Below, piece after piece: positions 34,298 to 55,388 of a DNA stretch of 64,000 nt. Position numbers and translations under genes: made by a program. Where the stretch lies: assembly GCA_013289765.1 (NCBI GenBank), contig JABCZI010000001.1:124001-188000 (forward strand), read 5' to 3'. The first letter of the stretch is position 1. Every line of letters begins with the position of its first letter. Source of the DNA: Acidobacteriota bacterium. Lineage in GTDB: Bacteria; Acidobacteriota; Terriglobia; Terriglobales; Acidobacteriaceae. A model generated the notes under the pieces. The model saw nothing but the letters and a program-made list of their open reading frames with translations. It did no database searches and was not told where the DNA came from.

Positions 34298-34305
34298 GAC
34301 AAGCC

Positions 34306-34806: not shown

Positions 34807-34837
34807 GCTCAACGACGAGAACGGGGAAGAAAGAACG

Positions 34838-35749: not shown

Positions 35750-37935
35750 CGAATTCTCCCGATGAACGCGGAGCGGAACTGCGAGAGCTTTTTTTTGAGA
35801 CCTCGCAGGAACTGCTGCAGGCGCTGAACGAAGAATCGCTAAAACTGGAGAAGCATCCCGGCGATGAGGAGATCGTGCGTTCAATCCGCCGCACCGTGCA
35901 TACGTTGAAGGGAGATTCGGCGGCTTGCGGTCTTCGCGAACTGAGCGAACTGGCGCACCAGTTCGAGGATGCACTGTCGCTTGAAAGCGCCGCTGCTCAC
36001 AGGGCGCTCGCCGAAATCGCTTTTGCGGCCGCGGACGTTTTTACCGAGATGCTCGCCTCCTACCACCATGGAGGCCCGATGCCTCCGACGGAAGCTCTGC
36101 GGCAAAGAATTACTGAGCTCACGGCAACCCCCGCCGAGAAAAAAAACAGGCGCAAGAAAAAATCCGCTGAACCGGTCTCGCAGTCGAGCAAGAATTGGAC
36201 CGAGGCGGAAAAGCGCGCGATCACCCAGGCAAAAGCCGCCGGGCTCGGACTGTTCGACATTACGGTGAAGATCGATCCTCACTGCGCCATGCCGATCGCG
36301 GCGCGGCAACTGATTCACAATGCGGTCCGCGAGCTCGGGCAAGTCCTGGTGATTCGGCCCGATGCCAAATCGCCCGCGGCCTCAAAGCAGGTGGAATTCG
36401 TTTTTGCCGGCATGCAATCGAAGGAGCAGATTGCCGTCAAGTGCCAGATTCCAACCATCGCCGGCGAAGTGAGCGTCAGCGTTATCCACGCCGCGTCAGG
36501 GGCGAAGACGTTAGCGACAGTTATCGATCAGCCGGTTGCATCCGTAGTCGATGTTGCGGCTCCGGCGGATTCGGCTGGCAAGAGGGCGGCGCCGAGCCAC
36601 GCCGAGCCACCCGAGGTACAAACTCAAAATTCAGATGCGGGCTCGGCCCAGACTTCGACCGAAAATATCCTGCGTGTGGAAGCCGGGCGCATCGATAACG
36701 TTCTCAACCTGGTGGGGGAACTCATTATTGGCAAGTCGATGCTGCAGCAAGCGCTCAACGAGTTCGGCAAGCGCTATCCCAAGGAACTTCTAAGAGGTAA
36801 GTTCGCCGATGCCATGGCATTTCAGGCGCGAGTGCTGAACGATTTGCAGCGCTCGGTAATGAAGATTCGCATGGTGCCGGTAGAGCAGCTTTTCCGCCGC
36901 TTTCCCCGCCTGGTCCGCGATGTGGCGAAGCAGTGCGGCCGCGAAGTTGATCTGGAACTCACGGGACTCGAGACTGATCTCGATAAAGGAATTCTCGACG
37001 CAATCGCCGAGCCACTCACTCACTTGGTGCGAAATGCCGTGAGTCATGGCATCGAATCCGCCGAGCAACGCCTGGCGCAAGGCAAGCCTGCGCGCGGCAA
37101 GATACGCATGCATGCTTATCACCAGGGCAATCAAGTTGTGGTTGAGATTAGCGACGATGGACGCGGTATTGATGCGCAAAAGATTCGCACCAAAGCGATC
37201 GACCTCGGAATAACAACCATAGAAGAAGCGTCTCGATTGAGCGAAACCGAAGCCTTGGATTTTATCTTTCGTCCCGGATTCAGCACGGCAGAGGAGGTCA
37301 CTGAAGTTTCGGGGCGCGGGGTCGGCATGGACGTAGTGCAAAGCGTGCTGCAACGGCTGAAAGCCACGATTCACGTGGAGACACATATTGGCCAGGGCAC
37401 GACCTTCCGCCTGAAGCTGCCGCTTACCCTGGCCATTATCAAGGCCCTGATGTTCTGGGTGGAGCAGCGGCTGTACGCCATCCCGCTGAATGCGGTTAAC
37501 CAGATTGCGCGCACCAGGGAATCGGAAGTCCATCAGGTGGACAACTACGAAGTGCTGCAGCTGCGCAATCAAGTGCTGCCATTGCTGCGGCTGGGGCGGC
37601 CCGCCGCTTCCGATGTGGACCGCAAATCAAGCAAACTTTTCGTTCTGGTGATTACCGTCGGCGAAAGGAAATATGGCTTGATCGTTGACGCGCTGGAAGG
37701 GGAGGAAGAATTGGTCATCAAAGCATTAGACGATCAGACGTTTTCCACCGATCTGGTCAACGGAGCCTCAATTCTCGGAAATGGAAAAGTGGTATTGATT
37801 CTGAATCTGCCGGCGGTGGTCGAACACGTCGCGCGGACGCGGTCACAGGAGGCCTGCCTGACGAATTCTGGGCTGCTGCTGAACCACGCTGATCGCACAC
37901 AGTTGGGTCTGAGCGTTACAGGAGGGCGGGCATGA
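35746..37935 (+). CDS. cheA: Chemotaxis histidine kinase CheA
   Basis: A 729-residue kinase starting at TTG, overlapping the cheR stop (TTGA). P1 phosphotransfer domain with His52 in RRTVHTLKGDSAACGL. P2-like response-regulator-binding domain at about 155-255 (GLFDITVKIDPHCAMPIAAR). Dimerisation P3 starts near 305 (VEAGRIDNVLNLVGELIIGK), ATPase P4 (LTHLVRNAVSHGIESAEQRL, DDGRGID, GRGVGMDVV), and CheW-like P5 (LKLPLTLAIIKALMFWVEQR) to the C-terminus. It autophosphorylates under receptor control and donates phosphate to CheB and the CheY-type protein two genes on. Confidence 0.95.
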   Translation: MTNSPDERGAELRELFFETSQELLQALNEESLKLEKHPGDEEIVRSIRRTVHTLKGDSAACGLRELSELAHQFEDALSLESAAAHRALAEIAFAAADVFTEMLASYHHGGPMPPTEALRQRITELTATPAEKKNRRKKKSAEPVSQSSKNWTEAEKRAITQAKAAGLGLFDITVKIDPHCAMPIAARQLIHNAVRELGQVLVIRPDAKSPAASKQVEFVFAGMQSKEQIAVKCQIPTIAGEVSVSVIHAASGAKTLATVIDQPVASVVDVAAPADSAGKRAAPSHAEPPEVQTQNSDAGSAQTSTENILRVEAGRIDNVLNLVGELIIGKSMLQQALNEFGKRYPKELLRGKFADAMAFQARVLNDLQRSVMKIRMVPVEQLFRRFPRLVRDVAKQCGREVDLELTGLETDLDKGILDAIAEPLTHLVRNAVSHGIESAEQRLAQGKPARGKIRMHAYHQGNQVVVEISDDGRGIDAQKIRTKAIDLGITTIEEASRLSETEALDFIFRPGFSTAEEVTEVSGRGVGMDVVQSVLQRLKATIHVETHIGQGTTFRLKLPLTLAIIKALMFWVEQRLYAIPLNAVNQIARTRESEVHQVDNYEVLQLRNQVLPLLRLGRPAASDVDRKSSKLFVLVITVGERKYGLIVDALEGEEELVIKALDDQTFSTDLVNGASILGNGKVVLILNLPAVVEHVARTRSQEACLTNSGLLLNHADRTQLGLSVTGGRA

Positions 37936-39032
37936 GCCGGATACGCGTACTGGTAGTGGACGATTCCGCATTGATGCGCAAGCTGATCCCGCAGATGCTG
38001 GAAGCCGACTCGTCGATCGAAGTTGTGGGCACCGCGATGGACGGCACCTTTTGCCTGAAAAAAATCGAAGAGCTGCAACCCCACGTAGTCACTCTGGATT
38101 TGCAAATGCCCGGCATGAACGGCATCGACACAATCAAAGAAATTATGCGCCGGAATCCGCTGCCGGTGATTGTGGTGAGTTCGCACAGCACGGAAGGGGC
38201 TTCGGTCACCTTTAAGGCTCTGGGACTGGGCGCCTTCGATTTCGTGACCAAACCGCAAGACGCTTCGGCGCACATGACCGAAACGGCGGCCCAGTTGATC
38301 GCGAAAATCAAGGCAGCGGCCGGCGCTAAAATCGTCCGCCCCGGAACTTTAGGAGCAACCACCGCGCGGCCGGAAAAGATCTCCGTATCAAAAGCCCCGC
38401 CACCGCCGAGCAAGCTGGTAGCGATCGGAATTTCCACCGGGGGACCGCAAGCGCTGGAGTTTTTGCTGGCGCAACTGCCCCCTGACTTTCCAGGAGCAAT
38501 CGTAATCGTTCAACACATGCCGGAAGGCTTCACCGAAATGTTTGCCCGCCGTCTTGACGAGCTGTGCTCGCTGCGGGTGAAGGAAGCGCAATCGGGCGAC
38601 GTGCTGCAAGCCGGACGCGTGCTCATCTGTCCCGGAAGCAGGCACATCAAAGTGAAGCGAATGACCAGGGGAGACGTCGTAATACTCAATGACGACGCGC
38701 GGGTTAACGGGCACCGCCCCAGCGTGGACGTCTTATTCCACAGCGTAGCCGAAGAATTCGGCTCACACGCCATCGCCGCGCTCATGACCGGTATGGGGGA
38801 CGATGGTGCGGAAGGATTGGGTGCGGTGAAGAGGGCTGGAGGCATGACCATCGCGCAGAGCGAAGAAAGTTGTGTGGTCTTTGGCATGCCCAAGGCGGCG
38901 ATCGAACGCGGCTATGCCACGCGCGTCATCGCTTTGGATGTGTTGCCGGCTATGTTGCAGACTCTTTGTGTCCGCAATGAAGGCCGGGGGGAGATCGGCG
39001 GCGTTGGCAAGGCTGTACGCGCCGGGCTTTAA
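37932..39032 (+). CDS. cheB: Chemotaxis methylesterase/glutamine deamidase CheB
   Basis: A 366-residue two-domain protein. The receiver has phospho-Asp56 in VVTLDLQMPGMNG. After a linker (about 130-160) the esterase domain has Ser168 in AIGISTGGPQALE, His195 in IVQHMPEGFTE, and Asp291 in MTGMGDDGAEG. It removes methyl groups from the receptor, opposing CheR. ATGA overlap with cheA. The extra C-terminal 30 residues are not conserved in the family as far as I can tell. Confidence 0.95.
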   Translation: MSRIRVLVVDDSALMRKLIPQMLEADSSIEVVGTAMDGTFCLKKIEELQPHVVTLDLQMPGMNGIDTIKEIMRRNPLPVIVVSSHSTEGASVTFKALGLGAFDFVTKPQDASAHMTETAAQLIAKIKAAAGAKIVRPGTLGATTARPEKISVSKAPPPPSKLVAIGISTGGPQALEFLLAQLPPDFPGAIVIVQHMPEGFTEMFARRLDELCSLRVKEAQSGDVLQAGRVLICPGSRHIKVKRMTRGDVVILNDDARVNGHRPSVDVLFHSVAEEFGSHAIAALMTGMGDDGAEGLGAVKRAGGMTIAQSEESCVVFGMPKAAIERGYATRVIALDVLPAMLQTLCVRNEGRGEIGGVGKAVRAGL

Positions 39033-39115
39033 ACAAGTAATCGCTACAAGCTTTTGTGACCGGAGTCATCTGGCCGGCGGGAAGCCGCTGTGATGGAATG
39101 TTAGAGGAGGCTGTT

Positions 39116-39556
39116 ATGGAGCAGTTTGCATCGGTAAAACGCAGCAAGGACGGCCAACCCGTCCGCTACTTGATCGTGGACGATTCCGTGTTCGCGCGCA
39201 AGAATCTGGCCCGCATGATCGAAAGCTTCGGCGGCCAGGTGGCGGCTGAGGCGGGCGACGGCTTGACTGCCATCAGCGAATTCGACCGCACTCATCCCGA
39301 CATCGTGCTCATGGATATCACCATGCCGCAAATGGAAGGCATCGAGGCCGCCGAAAAAATCGTTCAGGCTCATCCCGAGGCCCGCATCGTCATGGTGTCG
39401 TCGGTGGGCTATCAGGAAAACATTGTGGCCGCATTGCAGCGCGGGGCACGGCATTTTGTGCAGAAGCCGGTGAAGCCCGAAGTGCTGTACGAGGTTATCA
39501 AGTACGTGCTGGGCGAAGACGGCGCGGTTGCTACCGCGGCCGGCTCGGGGGTCTAA
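39116..39556 (+). CDS. CheY-type single-domain response regulator
   Basis: A 146-residue receiver. Acidic pocket VDDSVFARK, phospho-Asp67 in VLMDITMPQM, Thr/Ser in VMVSSVGYQ, and Lys in FVQKPVKP. The start at 39116 is supported by AGAGGAGG about 5 nt upstream; the earlier in-frame start lacks one. It is 83 bp after cheB and 5 bp before cheX, so it is the likely diffusible output of the operon. No flagellar switch genes are in the window, so the actuator is unknown (flagellum, pili or another system). Confidence 0.92.
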   Translation: MEQFASVKRSKDGQPVRYLIVDDSVFARKNLARMIESFGGQVAAEAGDGLTAISEFDRTHPDIVLMDITMPQMEGIEAAEKIVQAHPEARIVMVSSVGYQENIVAALQRGARHFVQKPVKPEVLYEVIKYVLGEDGAVATAAGSGV

Positions 39557-39561
39557 TCGCG

Positions 39562-40059
39562 ATGAAGATGGAACTGATTCAGCCTTTCATCAATGCGGCG
39601 GACGCCGTGTTGTCGCAAGGTCTGTCGGGAACCACGAAGGTGGGCTACCTCTCGATGGAAGAGGACGCCTATCGCCGCAAAGGTGTAGCCGGAATGGTTG
39701 CTCTTACCGGCGACATCGAGGGCCGAATCATTCTGGATCTCGAACCCCAATCCGCGGTGCGCGTGGCCAGTCACTATGCCGGCGCGGACCTGCCTGAGTC
39801 CGACGGACTGATCAAAGAAACCATCTTCGAGTTGGCGAACCAGGTTGTCGGCAATGCCGTCTGCGCGCTCAACGACCAGGGCTTCCATTTCCGGGTGCAT
39901 CCTCCGCTGCTGCTCACGTCCGAACAAGGCGACAAGAGCAGCGAAGATGTTGAGGCATTGATGATCTGCTTTGAAACCGCGATGGGCAACGTGTTTATGA
40001 ACGTCGCGCTGCGCTACAACAAGCGGCGCATGGCGGATCACCAGACTGCGGGAGCATAG
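39562..40059 (+). CDS. cheX: CheX-like CheY-P phosphatase
   Basis: A 165-residue protein of the CheC/CheX/FliY class. The signature helix with the catalytic Glu and Asn reads KETIFELANQVVGNAVCALN, and a second partly matching region, ICFETAMGNVFMNVALRYNK, lies near the C-terminus. GTTKVGYLSM and MVALTGDIEGRIILDL form the beta core. It would hydrolyse phospho-CheY and reset the signal. Its presence right after the CheY-type gene completes the adaptation/termination set. Confidence 0.88.
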   Translation: MKMELIQPFINAADAVLSQGLSGTTKVGYLSMEEDAYRRKGVAGMVALTGDIEGRIILDLEPQSAVRVASHYAGADLPESDGLIKETIFELANQVVGNAVCALNDQGFHFRVHPPLLLTSEQGDKSSEDVEALMICFETAMGNVFMNVALRYNKRRMADHQTAGA

Positions 40060-42260: not shown

Positions 42261-43640
42261 ATGGAACCTGTCGCGGTAGGGGTCATTGGCCTGTTGTTTG
42301 GCAGCGTGATTGCTTGGCTGGCGCTGCGCTCGCGAAGCGCCGGTATCAGCGCTCGCTTGTCCTTGAGAGAGAAGGAATTAGAGTCCGAAAAGGCCAGTCT
42401 GGCGCGGCTTCAGCAGGCTCATACCGAGTTGGTGGCGGGCAAAGCACACCTCGAATCCGCCCTCGAATCGGAACGGAAGGCCAGCAACGAAAAGATCGAA
42501 TTAGTCACGCGTGCCAGCGAGGATTTGCGCAATGCCTTCAAAGCCATGGCTTCCGACGCCTTGAAGAGCAACAACTCTTCCTTCCTGGTAATCGCGGAAG
42601 AAACGCTGAAGCGCTTTCAAAGCCAGGCGAAAGGCGACCTCGAAGCCCGGCAAAAAGCCGTGGCTGACATGGTCGCACCCGTGCGCGATTCGCTGAATAA
42701 GGTGGACGCGCAGATTCAGCAGATGGAAGTTGCGCGTGGCGATGCTTACGGCGAACTTCGCTCGCAAGTGCAGTCGCTAATTACGACTCAAAAAGAATTG
42801 CAATCGCAGACGGGCAACCTGGTGCGGGCGCTGCGCACTCCCAACGTGCGCGGTCGCTGGGGAGAAATCCAGTTGCGGCGCGTCGTCGAGATCGCCGGCA
42901 TGCTTCCCTATTGCGATTTCACCGAGCAGGAATCCGTGACCACCGAAACCGGAAGGCTGCGTCCCGATCTGATCGTGAAGCTGCCGGGTGGCAAACACGT
43001 TGTCGTCGACGCCAAAACACCGCTGCAAGCTTTTCTCGAAGCCTTCGAAACTACTGACGAAGACGCCCGCCGCGTTTGCCTGGCGAATCACGCGCGTCAG
43101 GTCCGCGATCATATGAATACTCTCAGCGGAAAAAAATATTGGGAGCAGTTCGACGCGACTCCCGAGTTCGTCGTGATGTTTCTTCCTGGAGAAACTTTTT
43201 TTAGCGCGGCGCTGGAGCAGGATTCCGGCTTGATTGAGCACGGAGTTCTAAACCGCGTGATTCCCGCGTCTCCCACTACGCTGATTGCGCTTCTTAAGGC
43301 CGTCAATTACGGATGGAATCAGGAAAAACTGGCGCGCAACGCCCAACAGATCAGCGCGCTGGGCAAGGAACTGCACGACCGCCTGCGGCTTCTCGCGGGA
43401 CACATCACGCAGGTCGGCACCGGGCTCGACCGCGCCGTCGAGTCTTATAACAAGGCGGTTGGATCGCTCGAAAGCCGTGTGCTGGTTTCGGCGCGCAAGT
43501 TTGCCGAACTGGGCGCATCCGTCGCCGATGACATTCCTGAACTAGCGCCTATTGAAACCACTGCACGGGAGCTCTCGTTTGAGTGGGATGAAGACGATCT
43601 TCCCTCTGAGACGCCTGAGGATAAAAGGAAGGCCGGGTAA
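42261..43640 (+). CDS. rmuC: RmuC-family DNA recombination protein
   Basis: A 459-residue protein with an N-terminal membrane anchor (AVGVIGLLFGSVIAWLALRS), a long coiled coil (about 30-190, for example LSLREKELESEKASLARLQQ) and a C-terminal nuclease-like domain. RmuC hallmarks are visible: VRGRWGEIQLRRVVEIAGML, GRLRPDLIVKLPGGKHVVVD, DAKTPLQAFLEA, FVVMFLPGETFFSAALEQD and ASPTTLIALLKAVNYGW. The protein limits inversions at short repeats in E. coli; its biochemical activity is not firmly settled. Monocistronic here. Confidence 0.93.
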   Translation: MEPVAVGVIGLLFGSVIAWLALRSRSAGISARLSLREKELESEKASLARLQQAHTELVAGKAHLESALESERKASNEKIELVTRASEDLRNAFKAMASDALKSNNSSFLVIAEETLKRFQSQAKGDLEARQKAVADMVAPVRDSLNKVDAQIQQMEVARGDAYGELRSQVQSLITTQKELQSQTGNLVRALRTPNVRGRWGEIQLRRVVEIAGMLPYCDFTEQESVTTETGRLRPDLIVKLPGGKHVVVDAKTPLQAFLEAFETTDEDARRVCLANHARQVRDHMNTLSGKKYWEQFDATPEFVVMFLPGETFFSAALEQDSGLIEHGVLNRVIPASPTTLIALLKAVNYGWNQEKLARNAQQISALGKELHDRLRLLAGHITQVGTGLDRAVESYNKAVGSLESRVLVSARKFAELGASVADDIPELAPIETTARELSFEWDEDDLPSETPEDKRKAG

Positions 43641-43907: not shown

Positions 43908-46900
43908 ATGGGCAGCACTCCGACATCTGGTCTGGCCAAGGCGGGAATTGCCATTCCGCTGACTGCGGGATCGGTGTGGCTGGCCATGGTGGCGGCCCGC
44001 AAGTTATCCGCCGGAGCTTCGGATTTCATGCCTCACGGATATTGCTATCTGTGGAATCCGCGAATTCTATGGCTGAATGTCATCTCTGATGGCTTGATCA
44101 CGCTCTCGTACTACGCCATCCCCGTTATCCTGATTTATTTCATCCGCGAGAATCGCAACCTTCCCTTCAATCGCATTTTCTGGATGTTCGGTGGATTCAT
44201 TCTGGCTTGTGGCACCACCCACCTGATGGAGATCTGGAACGTCTGGCACAGCAATTACATGCTGGCGGGCGTCATGAAGGCAGCCACAGCGGCGCTGTCC
44301 ATGCTCACGGCGGCGATGCTCATCCCCTTGGTTCCGAGGGTGATGTCCGTGCCCGGCCGGGTTCACTTGCAGGATGTAAATCGCGGGCTGCAACAGGAAA
44401 TCGCCGACCGGAAGCGGCTCGATGCGCCGATCGAGGCCCCGTTTCGGCGCAGGGTTACGATCGGCTTCATCGTAGCGATGCTGCTGACAATCTCTATGGG
44501 ATTTTTGTCCTGGCGCGGCGCCCGGACAGCTGCGAATGACGCCGACTGGGTGGCTCACACCTATGCGGTGATGGACGCGATCGAGCTCACGTCCAAACAT
44601 GTAATCGAAACGGAAACGAGTGCGCGGGCGTTTGCCTTGAGCGGGCAAGACATTCTGCTGGCACACTACGAGACCGCGCGGGGCACCGTGGCGGAGGACG
44701 AGGGAGCGATGCGGCATTTGGTAGTGGACAATCCAGATCAGCAGCGACGCCTGGATGTGCTCCAGCTGCAAGCCCGAGCCGCCCTCGAATTCGCTGATAG
44801 CATCGTCGCCGAACGCCGGCAGTTTCAGGCAGCTCCTGGCGCGAGCGAGATTGTTGAGACTGAGACGCTCATGGAGGCAGTGCGCACTACGACTCAAAGC
44901 ATGCAGGCCGGTGAAATGCGACTGCTGAGCCAGCGCACCCAAGCAACCAAGGCAGGGAGACGGTTGACAAGTTTCATCATTGTCACAGGCATTTTCGTTG
45001 GGGCAGGCTTATTGTCGCTAGCCAGGATCGCCGTCAACTGCGAGATTGACATCAGCGCCCAGGCACGAGCCCAACTCGGCACCCTGAACGCCGAGTTGGA
45101 ACAGCGCGTAGAGCAACGCACCACGGCCCTGGAATCCGAAATCGCCGAGCGGAAGCGAGCGGAGGGGGTAAACGAGCAGGTGCTCGTGGAACTCGCCGAT
45201 CAAAAGTTCGCTTTGGATCAGCACGCCATCGTCGCCACCACCGACGTTCAAGGCACCATCACCTACGTCAACGACAAGTTCTGCGCCATCAGCCAGTATT
45301 CGCGCGACGAGCTGCTGGGTCAGAATCATCGCATTCTTAATTCCGCACACCATCCCAGAGAATTCTTTCAAGAGATGTACCACAGCATCGCCAACGGCCA
45401 AGTGTGGCGAGGTGAGATCTGCAACCGCGCCAAGGACGGTTCGATTTACTGGGTGGATACGACCATCGTCCCGTTCGTCGGCCCCGAGGGCAAACCGCGC
45501 CAGTACGTTGCCATCCGGGCGGACATCAGCGAGCGCAAGCGAGCCGAAGAAGCGCTCAAGGAAAGCCTGGCAGCACGAGAGCAGGCGTTCAAGGACGTGG
45601 CCGACCAGAAATACGCTCTCGATCAGCACGCCATCGTCGCCACCACCGACGTTCAGGGGACCATCACTTATGTGAACGACAAGTTCTGCGCCATCAGTAA
45701 GTATTCACGGGATGAACTTCTGGGGCAGAACCATCGCATCCTCAACTCGAGCCATCACCCGAAAGAATTTTTCCAGCAGATGTACCGCACCATCGCGAAT
45801 GGCGAGGTCTGGCACGGCGAGATCTGCAACCGGGCCAAAGACGGATGGATTTACTGGGTGGATACGACCATTGTCCCGTTCGCCGGCGTGGATGGCAAAC
45901 CGCGCCAGTACGTCGCGATCCGCGCGGATATCACCGAGCGCAAGCGGGCGGAAGAAGCACTGCGGGAGAGTCTCGTCACCAGCAAGGTCGCCCTGAAAGA
46001 TCTGGCCGATCAGAAGTTCGCTCTGGACCAGCATGCGATCGTCGCCACCACCGACGTTCAGGGGACCATCACCTACGTGAACGACAAGTTTTGCGCCATC
46101 AGCAAATACTCGCGCCAAGAGTTGGTGGGCCAGAACCACCGCATTCTCAACTCCGGCCACCACTCCAAAGAGTTTTTTCAGCAGATGTATCACACCATCG
46201 CCAACGGACAAGCGTGGCGGGACGAGATCTGCAACCGGGCCAAAGATGGTTCGATTTACTGGGTGGATACCACCGTTGTCCCGTTCCTTGACGCCTACGG
46301 AAAACCCCGGCAGTACATGGCGATCCGCGCGGACATCACCGAGCGCAAGCGGGCGGAGGAGGTGCGCGAACGCCTGGCCGCCGTGGTCGAGTCATCTGAA
46401 GACGCCATTATCAGCAAGACCCTGGAGGGGATGATCAACAGCTGGAATCGAGGCGCCCAGAAAGTATTCGGTTATTCGGCAGCGGAGGCCGTGGGTAAAC
46501 CGATGCTGATGCTAATCCCGCCGGAGCGTGTCGGTGAAGAGTCCGACATTCTGGCGAGCATTCGACGCGGCGAGAGCGTGGAACATTTCGAAACCGTGCG
46601 TGTCCGGAAGGACGGCACGCACATTGACGTTTCTGCGACGATTTCTCCGATTAGGGACAGCAGTGGCGCGATTGTTGGCGCTTCGAAAATTGCGCGCGAC
46701 ATCACCGAACGCAAGCAAACTGAAGATCGGCTCGCCGGACAAGCGGAGGAACTCTCCCGGCAAGCCGGGGAATTGCTGCGCTCGCGACAGGCGCTGGAAA
46801 CCCAGACGCTGATGCTGCAGTCTGTTCTCGACAGCATGGCTGAGGGTCTGGTCGCGGCCGATGAGCGGGGAAAATTCATCATCTGGAATCCGGCCGCCAC

Positions 46901-48005
46901 GAGGATCGTTGGCATGGGCGCAGAGAACGTTCCTCCCGGGGAATGGAACGCACACTACGGCTGCTATCTACCCGACATGGTGACGCTTTTTCCCCCTGAG
47001 CAAAATCCTCTGGCACGCGCGGTTCGCGGGGAGGTGTGCACTGCCGAGATGTATGTGCGCAATCCCGAACTCGACCAAGGGGTCTGGATCGAGGTCAGCG
47101 GCGGTCCCCTGAAGGGCAAGGACGGCGTGGTGCGGGGCGGCGTGGTGGCGTTCCGCGACATCACGCAAAGAAGAGCGGACGAACAGGAAATCCGCAAACT
47201 CAATGACGGACTCGAAGAGAGGGTGGCGGAGCGCACCGCGCAACTAGCAGCGGCCAACCAGGAGTTGGAAGCTTTCACTTATTCCGTGTCCCATGATCTG
47301 CGCGCGCCGCTGCGGCACATCGGTGGGTTTTCCAGGATCTTGATCGAAGACTTTGCCGCCAGAATGGAGCCAGAAGCGCAGCAGCATTTGCAGCGCATCG
47401 AAGACGGAACCCGCCGTATGGGGTTGGCGGTGGATGAGCTGCTTAATTTGGCGCGGGTGGGCCGTCATGCCCTCAACCTCCAAATCGGCAGTCTGAATTC
47501 GATCATCGAGGATGTCGTTTCCCTGCTGCAGCCAGAAGCGGAAGGCAGAGCGGTGAATTGGGAGATTGCGAAGCTGCCTTCGGCAAACTGCGATCCCCTC
47601 CTGATTCGTCAGGTGTTTCAGAACCTGATCTCCAACGCCCTGAAGTTCACCCGCACCCGGGAGAGAACCGTCATCGAGATCAATCACCGGCTAGAAAATG
47701 GGCAGACAGTCATTTTCGTTCGCGACAATGGCGTCGGTTTCGACATGAAGTATGTCGACAAGCTGTTCGGCGTCTTCCAGCGTCTACACCGGGCGGAGGA
47801 TTTTGCAGGAACCGGGGTCGGCCTGGCAATCGTACAACGCATCGTTCACAAGCACGGAGGCCGGGTCTGGGCCCAGGCAGAGTCGGGCAAGGGCGCAACC
47901 TTTTGTTTCACCCTTAGCGCGGACACGGCTCCGCTGGCGCCAGTCGGCTCCGATGAGGCTAAGGCAAAAGAAGTTACTAACAAAACGGCCGCGGCAGGGA
48001 GTTAA
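43908..48005 (+). CDS. Ethylene-receptor-like hybrid sensor kinase with CHASE3 and five PAS domains
   Basis: A 1365-residue membrane kinase. The N-terminus (about 20-150) has several helices matching the plant ETR1 ethylene-binding domain: Asp61, Tyr68, Ile71, Pro72, Ile98, Cys101 and His105 (ACGTTHLMEIW) align with ETR1 D25, Y32, I35, P36, I62, C65 and H69 with identical spacing. A CHASE3-like periplasmic domain between two membrane segments follows (about 185-375). Next come three near-identical PAS units (427-561, 562-696, 697-831), a fourth PAS (about 832-955) and a fifth (about 970-1090), then HisKA with His1129 (YSVSHDLRAPLRHIGG) and HATPase. Ligand binding is inferred. No receiver is fused; the next gene is an Rcp1-like receiver. 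Confidence 0.9.
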   Translation: MGSTPTSGLAKAGIAIPLTAGSVWLAMVAARKLSAGASDFMPHGYCYLWNPRILWLNVISDGLITLSYYAIPVILIYFIRENRNLPFNRIFWMFGGFILACGTTHLMEIWNVWHSNYMLAGVMKAATAALSMLTAAMLIPLVPRVMSVPGRVHLQDVNRGLQQEIADRKRLDAPIEAPFRRRVTIGFIVAMLLTISMGFLSWRGARTAANDADWVAHTYAVMDAIELTSKHVIETETSARAFALSGQDILLAHYETARGTVAEDEGAMRHLVVDNPDQQRRLDVLQLQARAALEFADSIVAERRQFQAAPGASEIVETETLMEAVRTTTQSMQAGEMRLLSQRTQATKAGRRLTSFIIVTGIFVGAGLLSLARIAVNCEIDISAQARAQLGTLNAELEQRVEQRTTALESEIAERKRAEGVNEQVLVELADQKFALDQHAIVATTDVQGTITYVNDKFCAISQYSRDELLGQNHRILNSAHHPREFFQEMYHSIANGQVWRGEICNRAKDGSIYWVDTTIVPFVGPEGKPRQYVAIRADISERKRAEEALKESLAAREQAFKDVADQKYALDQHAIVATTDVQGTITYVNDKFCAISKYSRDELLGQNHRILNSSHHPKEFFQQMYRTIANGEVWHGEICNRAKDGWIYWVDTTIVPFAGVDGKPRQYVAIRADITERKRAEEALRESLVTSKVALKDLADQKFALDQHAIVATTDVQGTITYVNDKFCAISKYSRQELVGQNHRILNSGHHSKEFFQQMYHTIANGQAWRDEICNRAKDGSIYWVDTTVVPFLDAYGKPRQYMAIRADITERKRAEEVRERLAAVVESSEDAIISKTLEGMINSWNRGAQKVFGYSAAEAVGKPMLMLIPPERVGEESDILASIRRGESVEHFETVRVRKDGTHIDVSATISPIRDSSGAIVGASKIARDITERKQTEDRLAGQAEELSRQAGELLRSRQALETQTLMLQSVLDSMAEGLVAADERGKFIIWNPAATRIVGMGAENVPPGEWNAHYGCYLPDMVTLFPPEQNPLARAVRGEVCTAEMYVRNPELDQGVWIEVSGGPLKGKDGVVRGGVVAFRDITQRRADEQEIRKLNDGLEERVAERTAQLAAANQELEAFTYSVSHDLRAPLRHIGGFSRILIEDFAARMEPEAQQHLQRIEDGTRRMGLAVDELLNLARVGRHALNLQIGSLNSIIEDVVSLLQPEAEGRAVNWEIAKLPSANCDPLLIRQVFQNLISNALKFTRTRERTVIEINHRLENGQTVIFVRDNGVGFDMKYVDKLFGVFQRLHRAEDFAGTGVGLAIVQRIVHKHGGRVWAQAESGKGATFCFTLSADTAPLAPVGSDEAKAKEVTNKTAAAGS
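45186..46400 (+). repeat. Three tandem 405-bp PAS-coding units inside the ethylene-receptor-like kinase
   Basis: Matching segments recur at exactly 405 bp (GATCAGCACG-like block at 45216, 45621 and 46026), i.e. 135 codons each. The protein copies share ALDQHAIVATTDVQGTITYV and LGQNHRILNS and differ at few positions. The boundary falls in the linker ERKRAEEALRES. The high nucleotide identity points to recent duplication or gene conversion. Confidence 0.9.
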
Positions 48006-48484
48006 TGATGAACTCAAATGAAGTCGAAATTCTTTTGGTCGATGATAGTCAAGACGACATAGACCTCACTCTGCATGCTTTGCGGGCGGAAAATCTGGCG
48101 AACCGCGTCTTCATCGCTCGCGATGGCGAGGAAGCGCTGGATTTTCTGTTCTGCAAAGGACCCCATGCCGAACGGTCCTTTGAAAAACCGCCGAAGCTGG
48201 TCTTGCTGGATTTGAAGATGCCCAAAGTGGATGGAATGGAAGTCCTGAAACAGGTCAAGAATGATCCGCGAACCCGGACCATACCCGTCGTGCTGATGAC
48301 TTCTTCCCGCGAAGAGCGGGACATGGTGAGCGGCTATAACTTGGGGGTTAACAGCTACCTGCAAAAACCGGTGGACTTCGACCAGTTCCGGAAAATGGTG
48401 AAGCTGATCGGCCTGTACTGGCTGGTGACCAATCAGCCTCCCTTGACCGCCACCGCTGCGGGCACGGCAAAGCAGGCGCAATGA
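48005..48484 (+). CDS. Rcp1-like response regulator
   Basis: A 159-residue single receiver of the phytochrome-associated (Rcp1) type. The acidic pocket is VDDSQDDID; the insert FLFCKGPHAERSFEKPPKLV precedes Asp69 in LLDLKMPKVDG; VVLMTSSREERD supplies the Thr/Ser, and LQKPVDF the Lys. The start overlaps the kinase stop (TAATG), so the two are translated together. It is the most likely direct phosphate acceptor of the ethylene-receptor-like kinase. Confidence 0.93.
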   Translation: MMNSNEVEILLVDDSQDDIDLTLHALRAENLANRVFIARDGEEALDFLFCKGPHAERSFEKPPKLVLLDLKMPKVDGMEVLKQVKNDPRTRTIPVVLMTSSREERDMVSGYNLGVNSYLQKPVDFDQFRKMVKLIGLYWLVTNQPPLTATAAGTAKQAQ

Positions 48485-49677
48485 GCAGCAGCGCGGCCAA
48501 ACTCGGAATTGACAGCTCGATCGGGCCGAAACCAAAGCTGCGAGCTTTGCTAGTTGAGGACAATCAGCTCGACGCGGAACTGGTGTTGCGCGCGTTGCGC
48601 AAGGACAGCCTCGAAGTGAGTGCGGTGATTGTGCAGGACGAGGCGGGCTTCACCGAAGCGCTGCGCACTCACTCTCCCGAAATTGTGCTGGCCGACTACA
48701 ACTTGCCGAACTGGAAAGGAATGGAAGCGCTGACCGTGCTCCGCCGGCAAAACCTGGACATTCCGATGATCCTGGTTTCGGGCGCCCTCGGGGATGTAAC
48801 CGCCGTGGAATGCATCCGGCAGGGCGCTACGGATTATGTTCTGAAAGACGGGCTGGCACGCCTGCCTGAAGTAGTGCGCCGGGCCTTGCAGGAAAAATGT
48901 GAACGCGGCCTACGCCGTCAGGCGGAAGCAGATCTGGCAAAGAAAGCGGATGAATTGGCGCGCTCGAATGCGGACCTTGAGCAGTTCGCCTACGTCGCCT
49001 CCCATGACTTGCAAGAACCCCTGCGCATGGTCGCGGCATACACCCAACTGCTCTCCGAACGCTATCGTGGCAAGCTCGACGAGAATGCCGACAAATTCAT
49101 CGGCTACGCCAGCGAGGGCGCACTCCGCATGCAGGTGCTCATACAGGACTTGCTGGCATTTTCGAGAGTAGGGCGCGCCAATGGCGCCGATTCGATGGTC
49201 GATTGCAATGCCGTTCTCGAAGAGGTCGTAAAGAGTCTGGGCCCGGCCATTCAGGAAAACGGCGCGGTCATTGACTACTCGAACTTAAACTCCGCGAACT
49301 TACCTGGGGTTTGGGCCGACCGGACGCAGATCGTGCAGCTGTTCCAGAATCTGATCGGAAACGCCATCAAGTTTCGTGGGGAAAAGCAGCCGGTCATTTC
49401 CATACGGGCCGAGAAAACCGCGCTGTACTGGCAATTCAGCCTGGCTGATAACGGCATTGGAATCGCACCGGAGTTCGCCGATAACATTTTTGTCGTCTTC
49501 CAGCGTTTGCACGCGCGCACCGAATATCCCGGGAACGGCATTGGCCTCGCGATCTGCAAGAAGATCATCGAGCGTAACGGCGGCAACATTTGGGTTGAGT
49601 CCCAAGCCGGGTGCGGAGCCACTTTCAAGTTCACCATTCCGCTGCGCGGTGCCGACGAGAAAGACGGCAAAGCATGA
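48481..49677 (+). CDS. Receiver-histidine kinase fusion
   Basis: A 398-residue protein with a receiver domain first (residues about 20-140, phospho-Asp72 in IVLADYNLP) and then a coiled linker, HisKA with His175 in FAYVASHDLQEPLRMVAA, and HATPase (NLIGNAIKFRGEKQ, NGIGIAPEFADNIF, GNGIGLAICKKIIERNGG). The HisKA type is the one used by bacteriophytochromes and resembles that of the upstream large kinase. ATGA overlap with the preceding Rcp1-like gene. It may receive phosphate from that gene or from the kinase itself, forming an internal relay. Confidence 0.92.
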   Translation: MSSSAAKLGIDSSIGPKPKLRALLVEDNQLDAELVLRALRKDSLEVSAVIVQDEAGFTEALRTHSPEIVLADYNLPNWKGMEALTVLRRQNLDIPMILVSGALGDVTAVECIRQGATDYVLKDGLARLPEVVRRALQEKCERGLRRQAEADLAKKADELARSNADLEQFAYVASHDLQEPLRMVAAYTQLLSERYRGKLDENADKFIGYASEGALRMQVLIQDLLAFSRVGRANGADSMVDCNAVLEEVVKSLGPAIQENGAVIDYSNLNSANLPGVWADRTQIVQLFQNLIGNAIKFRGEKQPVISIRAEKTALYWQFSLADNGIGIAPEFADNIFVVFQRLHARTEYPGNGIGLAICKKIIERNGGNIWVESQAGCGATFKFTIPLRGADEKDGKA

Positions 49678-50123
49678 ACTCCGTGCGTCATCTTCTGATT
49701 GTGGACGACAACCCAGCGGATATCGGCCTGGCTTGCGAAGCCCTGAAACAATGCGCTCCCAGCTGCCAGATCAACAGCGTGGAGGATGGCGTGGAAGCGC
49801 TCGCTTTTCTGAACCGGCGGGGAAACTATAGCAGTGCACTCCCGGCCGATCTCGTCATCCTCGACTTGAATTTACCCAAGCGCGGGGGCTTGGCCGTCTT
49901 GGCCGCAATGAAGGCAAGTCCGGATCTGCGGTGCATTCCCGTGATTATCTTCAGCACGTCCCAGCTCAGCCAGGACGTCAAACGCAGCTATGAATTGGGA
50001 GCTAATTGCTACGTGTGCAAGCCGGGAAATCTTGTTGAATATTTTGCCGCCATGAAGTCGATTGAACAATTTTGGTTTGGCCTTGCCAGCCTGCCACCCA
50101 GAGGAGAACAAACAAAACAATGA
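49674..50123 (+). CDS. Rcp1-like response regulator
   Basis: A 149-residue receiver starting at ATG 49674, which overlaps the upstream stop by four bases. Pocket VDDNPADIG, phospho-Asp64 in VILDLNLPKRGG, Thr/Ser in IFSTSQLS, Lys in VCKPGNLVEYF. The upstream in-frame extension lies within the kinase gene and is not used. Likely acceptor for the adjacent receiver-kinase. A second overlap links it to the next gene. Confidence 0.92.
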   Translation: MNSVRHLLIVDDNPADIGLACEALKQCAPSCQINSVEDGVEALAFLNRRGNYSSALPADLVILDLNLPKRGGLAVLAAMKASPDLRCIPVIIFSTSQLSQDVKRSYELGANCYVCKPGNLVEYFAAMKSIEQFWFGLASLPPRGEQTKQ

Positions 50124-51712
50124 ATGAAACAACTACGAATGTATTGCTCATAGAAGATAACCCGGGAGATGCAGACCTCGTCCGCCTTCGCCTGGTCGAA
50201 GGCCAATCAGCAGTGAAGGTGAATTGCGTTAGCCGGCTGGCCGATGGCCTCGCTTCCCTGAGCCGGGAAACACCTTCGCTGGTCCTGTTGGACCTGAATC
50301 TTCCCGACAGTCACGGGGCAGACACTTTTCGACGCCTTATGGAGCACTCGCCCAATGTACCGGTCGTCGTGCTCTCCGGCCAGGATGACGAAGTACTGGC
50401 GATGAAAGCCGTCCATCACGGCGTGCAGGACTATCTGGTAAAAGGCAACATCTCCAGCAAGAATCTGGAGCGGGCTATGCGCTACGCCGTGGAACGCCAG
50501 GCCCTGCTTCGCTCCCTCGAAATCGCTCAGAAGCAGCAATTGGAATTCAAGAACCAGTTCCTGTCCCATGTCTCTCATGAACTGCGCACGCCGCTCACCT
50601 GCATTCACCAGTACGTTACTTTGCTTTTGGATGGCCTCGCCGGCCCGGTTGCGCCCGAGCAGGCCGACCACCTGAAGACAGTTTTGAAAAGCGTGAATCA
50701 GTTGCACGCCATGATCCGCGACCTGCTTGAGGCCACGCGCGCCGAGAGCGGCAAGATGCGCATCGAGCCACGCTGCATTTCGCTGAATGAACTGGTTCAA
50801 CAGGCCGCGGCAATGCTACGGCCCACCGCGGACGAAAAGAAAGTTGGATTGGAGGTAGGAATCGATCACCGGCTCCCTTTGGTGCACGCCGACCCCGATC
50901 GCGTGCTCGAAGTGTTGATCAACCTTGCAGACAATGCCATCAAATTCACTGCTCCGGATGGCGCAGTCATGCTGCAAGCAACTATGGTGGACGCCGATCC
51001 TGGTTCCGCCTACATTTCCGTCAGCGATACTGGACGCGGCATCGGGCCGGAAGCCAAGGCGCTGATCTTTGAGCGGCTGTACCAGGATCCCAATTCGGTT
51101 GATAACAACCGATCCGGACTAGGACTAGGTTTGTTTATCAGCCGGGAAATCGTACGGCTTCATCAGGGCCGGATCTGGGTTTCGAGTGAACCGGGGCAAG
51201 GTAGCACGTTTACTTTCACCCTGCCCATTTTCTCGCTGCCCAAGTTGCTTGCTCCGGTAGTCACGTACCAGGCCCAATTGCGTCCGGATATGGTGCTGGT
51301 GCGCATCGAACTGACGCCCCTGTCCAACCCTCCGCGGGGAAACTGGAAAGAAACCTGGCAGCAGTGTTTGGAGACCGTGCGCCGCTGCATCTATCTCGAC
51401 AAAGACTTGTTGTTGCCCCCGATGGGCGCGGCAGGGTCGGCCGAAACTTTCTACGTCGTCGCCTGCACCGATCTTCAGCGTTCCGGGATCATGACTACTC
51501 GGATCCGAGAACAGTTGGAGCGCGTTCCCGATCTCAAGTCCAAGTGCACGGTAACCATCACCTCGGTTCCGGTCCAGTTACCGGCCACCGATACCAAACA
51601 ATCGCTCGACCAGCAGATTCAAAGTGTCGCCGGTTGCGTAACCCAGATGATTTTTAGCGGTCTGGAACGCAAACAACTGTCAACCGGGAAAAGCTCAAAA
51701 AACGCCAATTGA
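50120..51712 (+). CDS. Receiver-histidine kinase fusion with unrecognised C-terminal domain
   Basis: A 530-residue protein from ATG 50120, overlapping the upstream stop (ATGA). The receiver (Asp58 in VLLDLNLPD) is followed by HisKA with His153 in FLSHVSHELRTPLTCIHQYV and an HATPase (NLADNAIKFT, VSDTGRGIGPEAKALIFERL, GLGLGLFISREIVRLHQGRI). About 150 residues after the ATPase (from about 385) match nothing I know; they include LPKLLAPVVTYQAQLRPDMV and could be an output or partner-binding domain. The tail has no receiver motifs. Confidence 0.9.
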   Translation: MNETTTNVLLIEDNPGDADLVRLRLVEGQSAVKVNCVSRLADGLASLSRETPSLVLLDLNLPDSHGADTFRRLMEHSPNVPVVVLSGQDDEVLAMKAVHHGVQDYLVKGNISSKNLERAMRYAVERQALLRSLEIAQKQQLEFKNQFLSHVSHELRTPLTCIHQYVTLLLDGLAGPVAPEQADHLKTVLKSVNQLHAMIRDLLEATRAESGKMRIEPRCISLNELVQQAAAMLRPTADEKKVGLEVGIDHRLPLVHADPDRVLEVLINLADNAIKFTAPDGAVMLQATMVDADPGSAYISVSDTGRGIGPEAKALIFERLYQDPNSVDNNRSGLGLGLFISREIVRLHQGRIWVSSEPGQGSTFTFTLPIFSLPKLLAPVVTYQAQLRPDMVLVRIELTPLSNPPRGNWKETWQQCLETVRRCIYLDKDLLLPPMGAAGSAETFYVVACTDLQRSGIMTTRIREQLERVPDLKSKCTVTITSVPVQLPATDTKQSLDQQIQSVAGCVTQMIFSGLERKQLSTGKSSKNAN

Positions 51713-52417: not shown

Positions 52418-52469
52418 CTTGGAAGTTGCTTTAGGTACGGCACTTAGCGGTCCCAAAACGGAAACGGAC

Positions 52470-55388
52470 ATGGCAGCGAAGTTGCTGATAGAGCATCAGT
52501 CTGACATTGATCTGCGGCACATTAGCCCACCTGTCGGGGCGCCGCTCAAGCCCATGAATCGGGAAAGCCAAGTCCGCTCGGTTGCCGTGCTGTTGTTCCT
52601 TTTGACCGTGGCTGCCGTCGTTTTCGCTGGGTTCAATTTCAATGCCGAGTGGAAATTCCTGGTTCCAGACGATGGCGTCTGGTGGGTCGAGCACGGCGGC
52701 CGGCTGACCGCCGATCGGGTCGAACGCACCGGACCCGGCGCCAAAAGCGGCATCAAGCCGGGCGACGAACTAGTCTCCATCAACGGACAAGAAGTGCGGA
52801 ACATGTCAGGGTTGGAGCGCCAACTCTACCGTAACGGCGTCTGGTCGAAGGCTGCGTATTCCCTGCTCCGGCAATCGGTTGTTCTCGATTCCAGCGTCAT
52901 ACTTGTACCTGCGGAGCGTTCTCTCAACAACTGGCTGCGGCTGATCGCGCTGATCTATCTCGGAATCGGCATCTACGTGTTGCTTCGCCGCTGGACTGCG
53001 GTCGGATCCACGCACTTCTATATCTTCTGCCTGGTTTCATTTATTGCTTATTCGTTCAAATACACCGGCAAGCTGAATGATTTCGACTGGGTAATTTATT
53101 GGGGCAATATCGCTGCCGGAGTCCTGCAGCCCGCCCTGTTTCTTCATTTCGTTCTCACCTTTCCTGAGAAGCGCCAGATCGTTCGCAAACATCCTTCTCT
53201 GCTCGCCTTGGTTTATCTCCCTGGAGCGATGTTGCTCGCCTGGCACATCACCGCCATGCAGTGGCTGCAAGCCAGTGAGAGGCTGCGTTGGAACCTCGAT
53301 CGAATGGAAATGTCGTACGGATCGCTCTTCTTTCTGGCCGCAGCGATCGTACTTTGGTACAGCTACCGCCGCGCCAGTACAACCATCCTGCGGCAGCAGT
53401 TGAAATGGGTGACGCGCGGAACCGTCCTCGCCGTTGTTCCCTACACCTTGTTCTACGTTGTCCCTTATCTCATGGGATCGCTGCCAGCCGCGACCATGAA
53501 GGTTTCTGCGCTTTCGCTCGCTCTGCTGCCGCTCACCTTCGGCTACGCGATCTTCCGTTATCGCTTGATGGATGTAGATCTCATCTTCAAGCGCGGCGTG
53601 GTATACACCCTCGCTGCGGCGATCGTCGTAGGATTGTATTTCGGCCTGGTCGCGGGCGTGGCTCTGCTGGTACACAACTGGCAACCCAGTTCCGGGCCCG
53701 TAGGTCTGATCCTGGCGGTCGTAGTAACCGCGCTGTTGTTTGATCCCGTCCGCAAATGGATTCAAGACCGCATCGATCAGTTCTTCTATCGCACGCGCTA
53801 TGACTATCGCCGCACCCTGCTTGAGTTCGGTCGCGAATTGGGTTCGGAGACCAACCTGAGCACACTGCTCTCTTCGCTGATCGACCGCTTATCGCGTACC
53901 CTCGCCGTCGATCGCATGGCGATTTTCCTGGCGGGAGACTCAGCGGACAATTTTGTTCTGGCCAAATCTTTCGGCCTGTCGGCTCCAGGCAGCATTGACC
54001 TGTCATTTCTAAGCATTTCTCGTCCCGAGCAGGCCGGCCACTTGTTCTTCGAAAACACTCATCAGGTACCTCGAGAGACGCCAGCCGCGCAACAGGCCAT
54101 CGCACGTCTGGATCTGAACTACTACATTCCCTGCCATGCGCAACACAAGACCATCGCCGTTCTTGGCTTGGGCAAGACCACGCAAGGCGACTTTCTCTCC
54201 AGCGAAGACATGGAATTGCTGGAAACACTGGGCGGTTATCTTGGCATCGCCATCCAGAACTCGCAGCTCTATGCCTCGTTACAACAGAAGGCAGCCGAGT
54301 ATGAGCGTCTGAAAGACTTTAACGAAAATATTGTCGAATCCATCAACGTAGGCGTAATGGCTCTCGACATGGAAGACCGCATCGAAAGCTGGAATGCGCA
54401 GATGGAAGTAATGTATGCGGTGCCGCGCTGGCAGACGCTAACGCAGTCCCTGAAGGCCATTTTCCCGGCCGAGTTTGTTGAGGAATTCCATCGCATGCGC
54501 AGCGAGCCCGGTATTCGAAACCTGTACAAATTCCGCCTGAATACGCCCGCAGGCGAAGTCCGCACTGTCAATGTAGCGCTTGCCCCTTTGGTTACGCGTA
54601 AGTTTGAGGTGATTGGCCGGTTGCTCATTATGGACGACATCACGGCGCGTGTCGAACTGGAAGCTCAGCTGTCCCAGGCCGACAAACTTTCGTCGATCGG
54701 ACTCCTCGCGGCTGGCGTGGCTCACGAAGTCAACACACCGCTGGCGGTGATCTCCTCCTACACGCAAATGCTGGCCAAGCAACTTCAAAGCGACTCCCAG
54801 AAATCGGCACTCCTCGAGAAGATTACGCGCCAGACTTTCCGTGCTTCTGAAATTGTCAACAACTTGCTGAACTTCTCCCGCACCAGCGGCAGCGAGATCG
54901 GCGATGTGGATGTCAACAAAGTAATCGCGGATACTCTGGCGCTACTCGAACACCAGTTCAAGGTAGCTAAAGTCGAAGTCGAGAATGTGCTGGCGCCGAA
55001 GCTCCCAGCAATTCAAGGAAATGCGGGACGATTGCAACAGGTCTTCTTGAACCTGTTCCTGAACGCCAAAGACGCCATGCCAGGAGGGGGCACCCTGCGG
55101 GTGGCGACACTGAACGGCGATAGCGTCAGCGTGTGCGTAACCGATACTGGTTCTGGCATCGCGCCCGAGAATATCCAGCGCATTTACGATCCTTTCTTCA
55201 CTACGAAGACTTCTCCGCGCGAAGGTCAGGCCCGCGGCACCGGTCTCGGTCTTTCCGTCACCTACGGGATCATCCAGGAACACGCGGGAAAGATTCGCGT
55301 CGACAGTCACCCCGGCACCGGGACAACCTTCACCCTGGATTTCCCTCTAAGTAGAAAGCCAGTCCATTCCAAGGCGGAATATGTCTGA
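52470..55388 (+). CDS. PDZ/membrane/GAF/PAS sensor histidine kinase
   Basis: A 972-residue kinase from ATG 52470 (52554 is another candidate). A first membrane segment near 35-55 is followed by a PDZ-like domain (RVERTGPGAKSGIKPGDELV, SINGQEVRNMSGLERQLYRN). Then come about seven to eight further hydrophobic segments (roughly residues 150-430). A GAF-like region follows (about 460-610), then PAS (FNENIVESINVGVMALDMED), HisKA with His752 (LAAGVAHEVNTPLAVISSYT) and HATPase (NLFLNAKDAM, VTDTGSGI, GTGLGLSVTYGIIQEHAG). The multi-helix/GAF/kinase plan resembles PrsK-type kinases, which pair with a sigma-54 regulator like the next gene; the PDZ part is unusual. The stop overlaps the next start. Confidence 0.92.
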   Translation: MAAKLLIEHQSDIDLRHISPPVGAPLKPMNRESQVRSVAVLLFLLTVAAVVFAGFNFNAEWKFLVPDDGVWWVEHGGRLTADRVERTGPGAKSGIKPGDELVSINGQEVRNMSGLERQLYRNGVWSKAAYSLLRQSVVLDSSVILVPAERSLNNWLRLIALIYLGIGIYVLLRRWTAVGSTHFYIFCLVSFIAYSFKYTGKLNDFDWVIYWGNIAAGVLQPALFLHFVLTFPEKRQIVRKHPSLLALVYLPGAMLLAWHITAMQWLQASERLRWNLDRMEMSYGSLFFLAAAIVLWYSYRRASTTILRQQLKWVTRGTVLAVVPYTLFYVVPYLMGSLPAATMKVSALSLALLPLTFGYAIFRYRLMDVDLIFKRGVVYTLAAAIVVGLYFGLVAGVALLVHNWQPSSGPVGLILAVVVTALLFDPVRKWIQDRIDQFFYRTRYDYRRTLLEFGRELGSETNLSTLLSSLIDRLSRTLAVDRMAIFLAGDSADNFVLAKSFGLSAPGSIDLSFLSISRPEQAGHLFFENTHQVPRETPAAQQAIARLDLNYYIPCHAQHKTIAVLGLGKTTQGDFLSSEDMELLETLGGYLGIAIQNSQLYASLQQKAAEYERLKDFNENIVESINVGVMALDMEDRIESWNAQMEVMYAVPRWQTLTQSLKAIFPAEFVEEFHRMRSEPGIRNLYKFRLNTPAGEVRTVNVALAPLVTRKFEVIGRLLIMDDITARVELEAQLSQADKLSSIGLLAAGVAHEVNTPLAVISSYTQMLAKQLQSDSQKSALLEKITRQTFRASEIVNNLLNFSRTSGSEIGDVDVNKVIADTLALLEHQFKVAKVEVENVLAPKLPAIQGNAGRLQQVFLNLFLNAKDAMPGGGTLRVATLNGDSVSVCVTDTGSGIAPENIQRIYDPFFTTKTSPREGQARGTGLGLSVTYGIIQEHAGKIRVDSHPGTGTTFTLDFPLSRKPVHSKAEYV

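Follow-up and report, generated by a model that had tools for sequence, protein, structure and literature searches.

Ethylene receptors of the ETR1 type are already known in bacteria, SynEtr1 and AzoEtr1 among them. Ethylene-domain genes with diverse outputs occur in many proteobacteria and cyanobacteria according to an excerpt of PMC7700396, and in further bacterial phyla that the accessible portion of PMC11819568 leaves unnamed. In the case of plant ETR1, the copper pair is formed by C65/H69 (PMC6586836, PMC11819568, excerpts), and AzoEtr1 has been shown to bind ethylene (PMC11819568, excerpt). Here we describe a sensor histidine kinase encoded in a stretch of 64,000 nucleotides from an acidobacterial contig (hereafter the window). 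It is likely to represent a bacterial ETR1-type, Cu(I)-dependent ethylene receptor kinase that integrates periplasmic and redox inputs, for which we infer copper, ethylene, flavin, a dimer, a signal path and phosphotransfer. All coordinates are positions in the window, and the receptor, its cassette and rmuC lie on the forward strand.

Domain layout and the ethylene-binding domain

The open reading frame that a preliminary description of this DNA had placed at 43908 on the forward strand is present and runs to 48005 (43908..48005), encoding a sensor histidine kinase of 1365 amino acids that comprises an extra transmembrane helix, an ethylene-binding domain (EBD; Pfam ETR1_N, PF25487), a transmembrane helix, CHASE3, another transmembrane helix, five PAS domains, HisKA and HATPase. 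Hydropathy detects membrane segments at residues 12-30, 58-76, 125-143, 183-201 and 353-371, the first being the peak that corresponds to the predicted extra N-terminal membrane helix (residues 15-33, 43950..44006; an AlphaFold2 helix of low confidence), and does not pick up the second EBD helix (88-113 in the AlphaFold2 model). Lysine and arginine together number three in residues 76-90, zero in 105-118 and nine in 140-184, a distribution that would place the MPHxxC motif described below and the loop between helices 2 and 3 outside, and the linker inside. Towards the C-terminus, HisKA (residues 1121-1184, 47268..47459) contains the phospho-acceptor H1129 within SHDLRAPL, and HATPase_c (residues 1229-1338, 47592..47921) contains the N and G boxes; all two-component kinase boxes were found (H1129, NLISNALKF, DNGVGF, GTGVGLAI), with the receiver RR1 linked.

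Structurally, the EBD (residues 53-147, 44064..44348) is a predicted three-helix bundle carrying D61, Y68, I71, P72, I98, C101, H105 and K124. A profile search for the ETR1 domain, set beforehand as a test, gave a strong match to ETR1_N (E 7.2e-38; 129 bits, cut-off 27), the only one in this 4.8-Mb, 97.6%-complete genome; together with the full predicted copper/ethylene site, it upholds the proposal of an ETR1-type domain on a bacterial multi-PAS kinase. D61, Y68, I71, P72, I98, C101 and H105 align with ETR1 D25, Y32, I35, P36, I62, C65 and H69, exactly the seven pairings proposed before. C101 and H105, in a CxxxH arrangement (44208..44222), are the predicted Cu(I) ligands, their role being taken from the alignment as in ETR1. 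Lys91, the output-linked helix-3 residue of ETR1, retains its counterpart in K124 (44277..44279) and not in Thr127, where the preliminary description had located it because ungapped counting missed a three-residue indel between helix 2 and helix 3. The resulting His-to-Lys spacing of 19 (H105/K124) equals that of H79/K98 in AzoEtr1 (PMC11819568, excerpt).

These positions are highly conserved. Among 61 bacterial rows, including the window row, its repeat and other duplicates and excluding the short, interrupted loci L012, L016 and L020, H105 and Y68 are kept in 61, C101 and I98 in 60, D61 in 58, I71 and K124 in 55 and P72 in 50. The invariant columns of a 74-row alignment (the window, 39 of the 120 listed proteins introduced below and 34 of 51 EBD segments, L019, in which the cysteine is lost, not being among them) are Y68, F94, F97, I98, C101, H105, Y117 and T134. 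The AlphaFold2 model of residues 1-430 (mean pLDDT 85.2, pTM 0.56) has EBD helices at 51-81, 88-113 and 117-147, and the EBD modeled alone reached a mean pLDDT of 87.1 and a pTM of 0.75. C101 and H105 are not far apart in the prediction: they occupy the same helix (88-113), four residues from each other. A search for a solved EBD structure returned a single PDB match by sequence, at chance level (E 0.94 over 26 residues), and none alike by fold search (best E 0.79). The domain is a genuine EBD of the ETR1 type, and it probably works as a Cu(I)/ethylene sensor.

Two alternatives bear directly on this domain. The EBD could be a structural relic that has lost ligand binding and merely anchors a CHASE3/PAS kinase in the membrane. 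Such decay does occur, since C101 or H105 is lost in 15 of 85 non-duplicate EBD-family rows in which both positions are readable (a set enriched for broken pairs, as one search started from a broken domain), and congeners lack the EBD at the same locus. Against this, every site residue is kept here, all seven residues and the lysine are kept in 119 of 120 proteins among the matches listed (of 956, self included; the exception, P0109, misses the K124 counterpart), and dN lies well below dS (0.07-0.23 versus 0.66-1.67) in six pairwise comparisons, so we regard a relic as quite improbable. Cu(I)-olefin chemistry lacks strict specificity, and the domain might also sense another Cu(I) ligand, such as CO, isoprene or acetylene, in place of ethylene. 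Soil, peat, bog, palsa and groundwater appear in the titles of relatives' records and would suit such ligands, and the origin of relatives in soil and peat samples agrees with the earlier suggestion of a probable soil bacterium; the site residues, however, match those found in proven ethylene-binding receptors, nothing observed points to another ligand, and this reading appears very improbable.

CHASE3 and the PAS triplet

The EBD is followed by TM4 (residues 183-201, 44454..44510), which lies within a predicted continuous helix entering CHASE3 (residues 212-345, 44541..44942; PF05227, E 2.5e-22), a predicted periplasmic helix bundle bounded on its other side by TM5 (residues 353-371, 44964..45020; hydropathy and model). 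By fold, CHASE3 comes closest in the PDB to 3va9, the sensor domain of HK9 (E 6.9e-3, TM-score by target 0.87), no match in that search reaching E 0.001 or better. In the AlphaFold2 model, TM4 belongs to an unbroken helix (152-245) that extends from the cytoplasmic linker to CHASE3, and a second long helix (312-429) leads from CHASE3 through TM5 to the cytoplasm; the path from the EBD to TM4 is uncertain because of a linker break at residues 150-152, where model confidence falls below 50. The EBD-CHASE3 region was matched by 956 proteins among 7991 candidates scored, and 120 of the 956 are listed (P0001 being this protein). Both domains are present in 120 of 120 among the matches listed (of 956, self included), so the combination is not the unusual one that it had been taken for. 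The few organism-named entries among the matches listed belong to Terriglobales and one Candidatus Binatus, and the nearest cassette relatives, as well as L021, have an EBD without CHASE3.

Of the five PAS domains, PAS4 (residues 821-934, 46368..46709) and PAS5 (PAS_7; residues 974-1093, 46827..47186) were assigned by Pfam. The preceding three form a triplet, each with four flavin-pocket residues: the MmoS/Aer-like PAS1 (residues 432-547, 45201..45548; T445, H474, N506, R537), PAS2 (residues 567-682, 45606..45953; T580, H609, N641, R672), identical to PAS1 in 102 of 116 residues, and PAS3 (residues 702-817, 46011..46358; T715, H744, N776, R807), identical to both in 99 of 116. With 99-102 of 116 residues, 286-288 of 348 bases and 71-75 of 116 third positions identical in pairwise comparison, their likeness marks them as tandem copies that are not very recent. 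The best PDB match of PAS1 is MmoS (3ewk, E 1.1e-52), followed by Aer and NifL, all of which are flavin sensors (PMC9668731, excerpt). The flavin-pocket positions T103, H132, N164 and R195 of MmoS (PMC9668731, excerpt) are retained as T, H, N and R by all three domains. In Aer, W70 stacks on the FAD adenine (PMC9668731, excerpt); this position is a tyrosine, still aromatic, in PAS1, PAS2 and PAS3, so that the domains may bind FAD in another way, bind a different flavin or bind none. Among the matches listed (120 of 956), the number of PAS1-like units per protein ranges from 0 to 6 and that of strict flavin-pocket units from 0 to 4, with none of the latter in 23 proteins.

The likeness to MmoS raises a further alternative, in which the EBD binds Cu(I) and reports copper or its redox state, forming with the flavin-type PAS domains a copper/redox sensor, the role proposed for MmoS in methanotrophs. 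The copper-ligand positions are indeed among the most conserved in the EBD alignments, PAS1-3 are closest to the MmoS PAS domains, and MmoS is tied to copper-dependent regulation, as a reference title in PMC9668731 indicates. The MmoS-like proteins L064 and L065, from two methanotroph genomes, nevertheless have no ethylene domain, unlike the receptor described here, and PAS likeness to MmoS thus does not imply copper sensing by the EBD. The ethylene-binding residues Y68, I71, P72 and D61 are kept as well, and the copper dissociation constant of ETR1, 1.3e-15 M (PMC6586836, excerpt), fits a cofactor better than a gauge; a copper/redox sensor is on balance unlikely. The candidate explanation that MmoS also contains an EBD, and so links the domain to copper sensing, was likewise rejected, given the missing EBD in L064 and L065.

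If the protein is an ethylene receptor, as we favor, its dimer would coordinate Cu(I) through C101 and H105 in helix 2 of the EBD, ethylene would bind to the copper held by this pair, and D61 and K124 would couple the copper site to helix 3. Movement of helix 3 would be transmitted through the cytoplasmic linker and the continuous TM4 helix to the periplasmic CHASE3 bundle; given a continuous EBD-linker-TM4-CHASE3 path, gas signal and CHASE3 input would converge on shared helices. From there, TM5 and the long helix would pass the summed signal to the three flavin-type PAS domains, which may add redox or oxygen input ahead of the kinase, and the phosphate on H1129 would be transferred to the overlapping receiver RR1 and from there to the receiver/kinase cassette.

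The receiver/kinase cassette and the distribution of the receptor

The cassette begins with RR1 (48005..48484), a single-domain receiver whose start overlaps the kinase stop by one base, and continues, after a 4-base overlap, with RR2HK (48481..49677; receiver and histidine kinase), the single-domain receiver RR3 (49611..50123) and RR4HK (50072..51712; receiver and histidine kinase), the true starts of the last two being uncertain. The upstream border of the sensor slot is formed by rmuC (42261..43640). No DNA-binding output domain was found by Pfam in the cassette proteins scanned. Of 37 genus genomes, 24 have an RR4HK match of at least 61% identity; this count includes the genome itself and two matches that are partial or fragmented. 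With 23 candidates scored in each genome, the 24 genomes from other genera gave no match at E 1e-60.

The cassette was compared in 20 of the 23 other genomes, and a sensor state, labeled by hand, was assignable in 13; the remaining 7 show contig ends, no recognizable adjoining sensor or, in G012, an EBD kinase behind the cassette. Across the 13 genomes and the window, the states are EBD with CHASE3 (one, the window only), EBD (four), CHASE3 (four), PAS only (three), a kinase without these domains (one) and no sensor kinase (one). rmuC stands upstream in 11 of the 13, the sensor frame contains an RR2HK-type kinase in five genomes (G005, G007, G013, G027 and G030), and the EBD copy of G030 is broken by TGA. 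On an RR4HK tree of the 14 genomes, with 8 of 18 inner branches well supported, no fewer than 4 changes account for EBD presence and no fewer than 10 for the six states, and the sister of the window is G003 (100/100), which has an EBD without CHASE3. To judge from these changes and the state of the sister, the front-end sensor appears to vary more rapidly than the cassette behind it.

Several features of the surroundings were recorded alongside. A chemotaxis-type cluster (32312-40059; MCP, CheW, CheR, CheA, CheB, a receiver and CheX) lies about 4 kb upstream, and parts of it occupy the same upstream place in three relatives (L072, L074 and L077). Downstream of the cassette, 52419-55388 encodes a PDZ-GAF-PAS kinase and 55381-56826 a response regulator of the sigma-54 activator type, a nearby DNA-binding output. 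No RNA families or tRNAs were found in the 64-kb window. In G012, a 1777-aa EBD kinase (L021/L087), whose EBD is 82% identical to that of the window, contains nine stretches of PAS_9 and gave no match to CHASE3, its gene lying behind RR4HK and not in front. The EBD copies L012/L075 (G030) and L016/L020 (G004) are interrupted by TGA or split over two frames, through decay or sequencing error.

ETR1_N matches occur in 14 of the 37 genomes of the genus, in 16 of 61 searched genomes (own included) and in 24 of 395 phylum genomes of at least 90% completeness, 23 of the 24 being over the cut-off. ACC deaminase, the one marker of plant association looked for, gave no match in this genome, a point against ethylene sensing. 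The genome does encode a copper-exporting ATPase, but this is uninformative, because 13 of 14 control genomes also have one over the cut-off. Elsewhere in the family, the EBDs of L054 (an Obscuribacterales bin) and L059 (a Chloroflexi bin) hardly differ (branches 0 and 0.063), a likeness that may be due to cross-phylum transfer or binning error; L057, L058 and L060-L063 (Methylomonas, Methylococcales and one uncultured proteobacterium) have a tyrosine at the position of ETR1 Ile35 with Pro36 kept, the L057 EBD kinase ending in a receiver domain. Among the open-access papers listed, we found ethylene receptors of Acidobacteriota described nowhere, although they may well be in subscription papers, nor an EBD together with CHASE3, and the motif strings occur in no paper; the open-access texts naming both ethylene receptor and acidobacteria are, by title and start of abstract, about plants and the rhizosphere, and the listed ones naming CHASE3 and ethylene are unrelated by their titles.

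The MPHxxC motif and comparison with known receptors

A second conserved pair, H43 and C46, is found in the motif MPHxxC (residues 41-46, 44028..44045), which precedes TM1 on the predicted periplasmic face and was modeled with moderate confidence (block means 72 for residues 1-430 and 61-87 for the EBD alone). In a 49-row alignment (the window and 48 of 51 EBD segments, with L019, L059 and L063 left out), P42, H43, C46, Y68, F97, C101, H105 and Y117 are invariant. PHxxC is missing in three proteins among the matches listed (120 of 956), two of which start inside the domain, while the third has alanine for the proline and keeps the histidine and cysteine. C46 aligns with C6 of ETR1, which forms an interchain disulphide with C4 (PMC6586836, excerpt). 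H43 has no AtETR1 counterpart in the alignment, ETR1 having only the cysteine of MPHxxC.

The motif was then compared with the state of the copper pair in 86 non-duplicate rows, of which 67 have an intact pair and 9 a broken pair with a readable N-terminus, the other 10 being without a readable N-terminus or copper site; beyond the nine, six rows with a broken pair have unreadable N-termini and are uncounted. C46 is kept in 67/67 and H43 in 65/67 of the intact rows, against 0/9 and 2/9 of the broken ones, and MPHxxC is complete in 0/9 of the latter. Other positions decay in the broken set too (Y117 1/9, T104 2/9, W49 2/9, T134 3/9), five of the nine rows form one clade that was sought on purpose (L019, P0122-P0125), and co-loss over independent pairs on well-supported branches comprises 3 pairs (mean 2.9 in the same direction, median p 0.25). 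The counts suggest that loss of HxxC is coupled to loss of the copper pair, and only suggest it because of the single sought clade, the decay elsewhere and the three independent cases. Built on 91 columns, the EBD tree leaves many forks open and contains many long branches, and no history was drawn from it. The rows that lost the copper pair (L019, P0122-P0125, L104, L107, L111 and L112) replace Cys by Ser or Phe, or His by Tyr, Gln, Ile or Arg; these EBDs are possible non-copper descendants of the ethylene domain.

In plants, the RAN1 copper pump delivers copper to the ethylene receptor. As a tentative and rather unlikely proposal, MPHxxC could be a second metal site (H43, C46) that passes periplasmic Cu(I) to C101/H105, replacing delivery by RAN1 and mostly lost in plant ETR1, in a receptor that is one of several plug-in sensors before a fixed cassette in this acidobacterial clade. 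Alternatively, C46 may form a dimer disulphide, for which only the cysteine position is conserved (C46 = C6). The HxxC pair offers a direct way to test copper acquisition by a bacterial ethylene receptor. If the clade senses ethylene, a large, mostly uncultured group of soil and peat Acidobacteriota would respond to a plant hormone gas; the serial EBD-CHASE3 layout would oblige this signal to pass by way of a periplasmic sensor, a form of signal integration open to experiment, and the sensor slot would provide a natural series of receptor swaps on one output cassette.

Such receptors with this domain layout or from this phylum were not found described among the open-access papers listed, and the receptor is a variant of known ones. 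AzoEtr1 of Azospirillum brasilense shares the seven residues, the His-Lys spacing, PAS and the histidine kinase, and its gene is likewise overlapped downstream by a single-domain receiver gene, as with RR1 here (PMC11819568, excerpt); it has 525 aa with PAS and kinase, whereas CHASE3, a PAS triplet and a receiver/kinase cassette are not described in the accessible portion of that source. SynEtr1 (slr1212, Synechocystis) is also a bacterial ethylene receptor kinase with a second input and a response regulator, the second input being light in a phototroph (PMC11819568, excerpt), in contrast to CHASE3 and flavin-type PAS here. For the PAS domains, comparison with MmoS, Aer and NifL (3ewk, 8dik, 2gj3) shows that PAS1-3 align with MmoS and Aer and have the same four pocket residues. 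CHASE3 kinases such as HK9 of Rhodopseudomonas palustris (3va9) likewise place a helical sensor bundle between two membrane helices, but here CHASE3 sits behind an ethylene domain. Plant ETR1 shares the membrane domain, C65/H69, K91 and the N-terminal Cys6 position (PMC6586836, excerpt), while it has a GAF domain where the receptor here has CHASE3 and PAS (PMC6586836, excerpt) and acts via CTR1/EIN2 (PMC7700396, excerpt).
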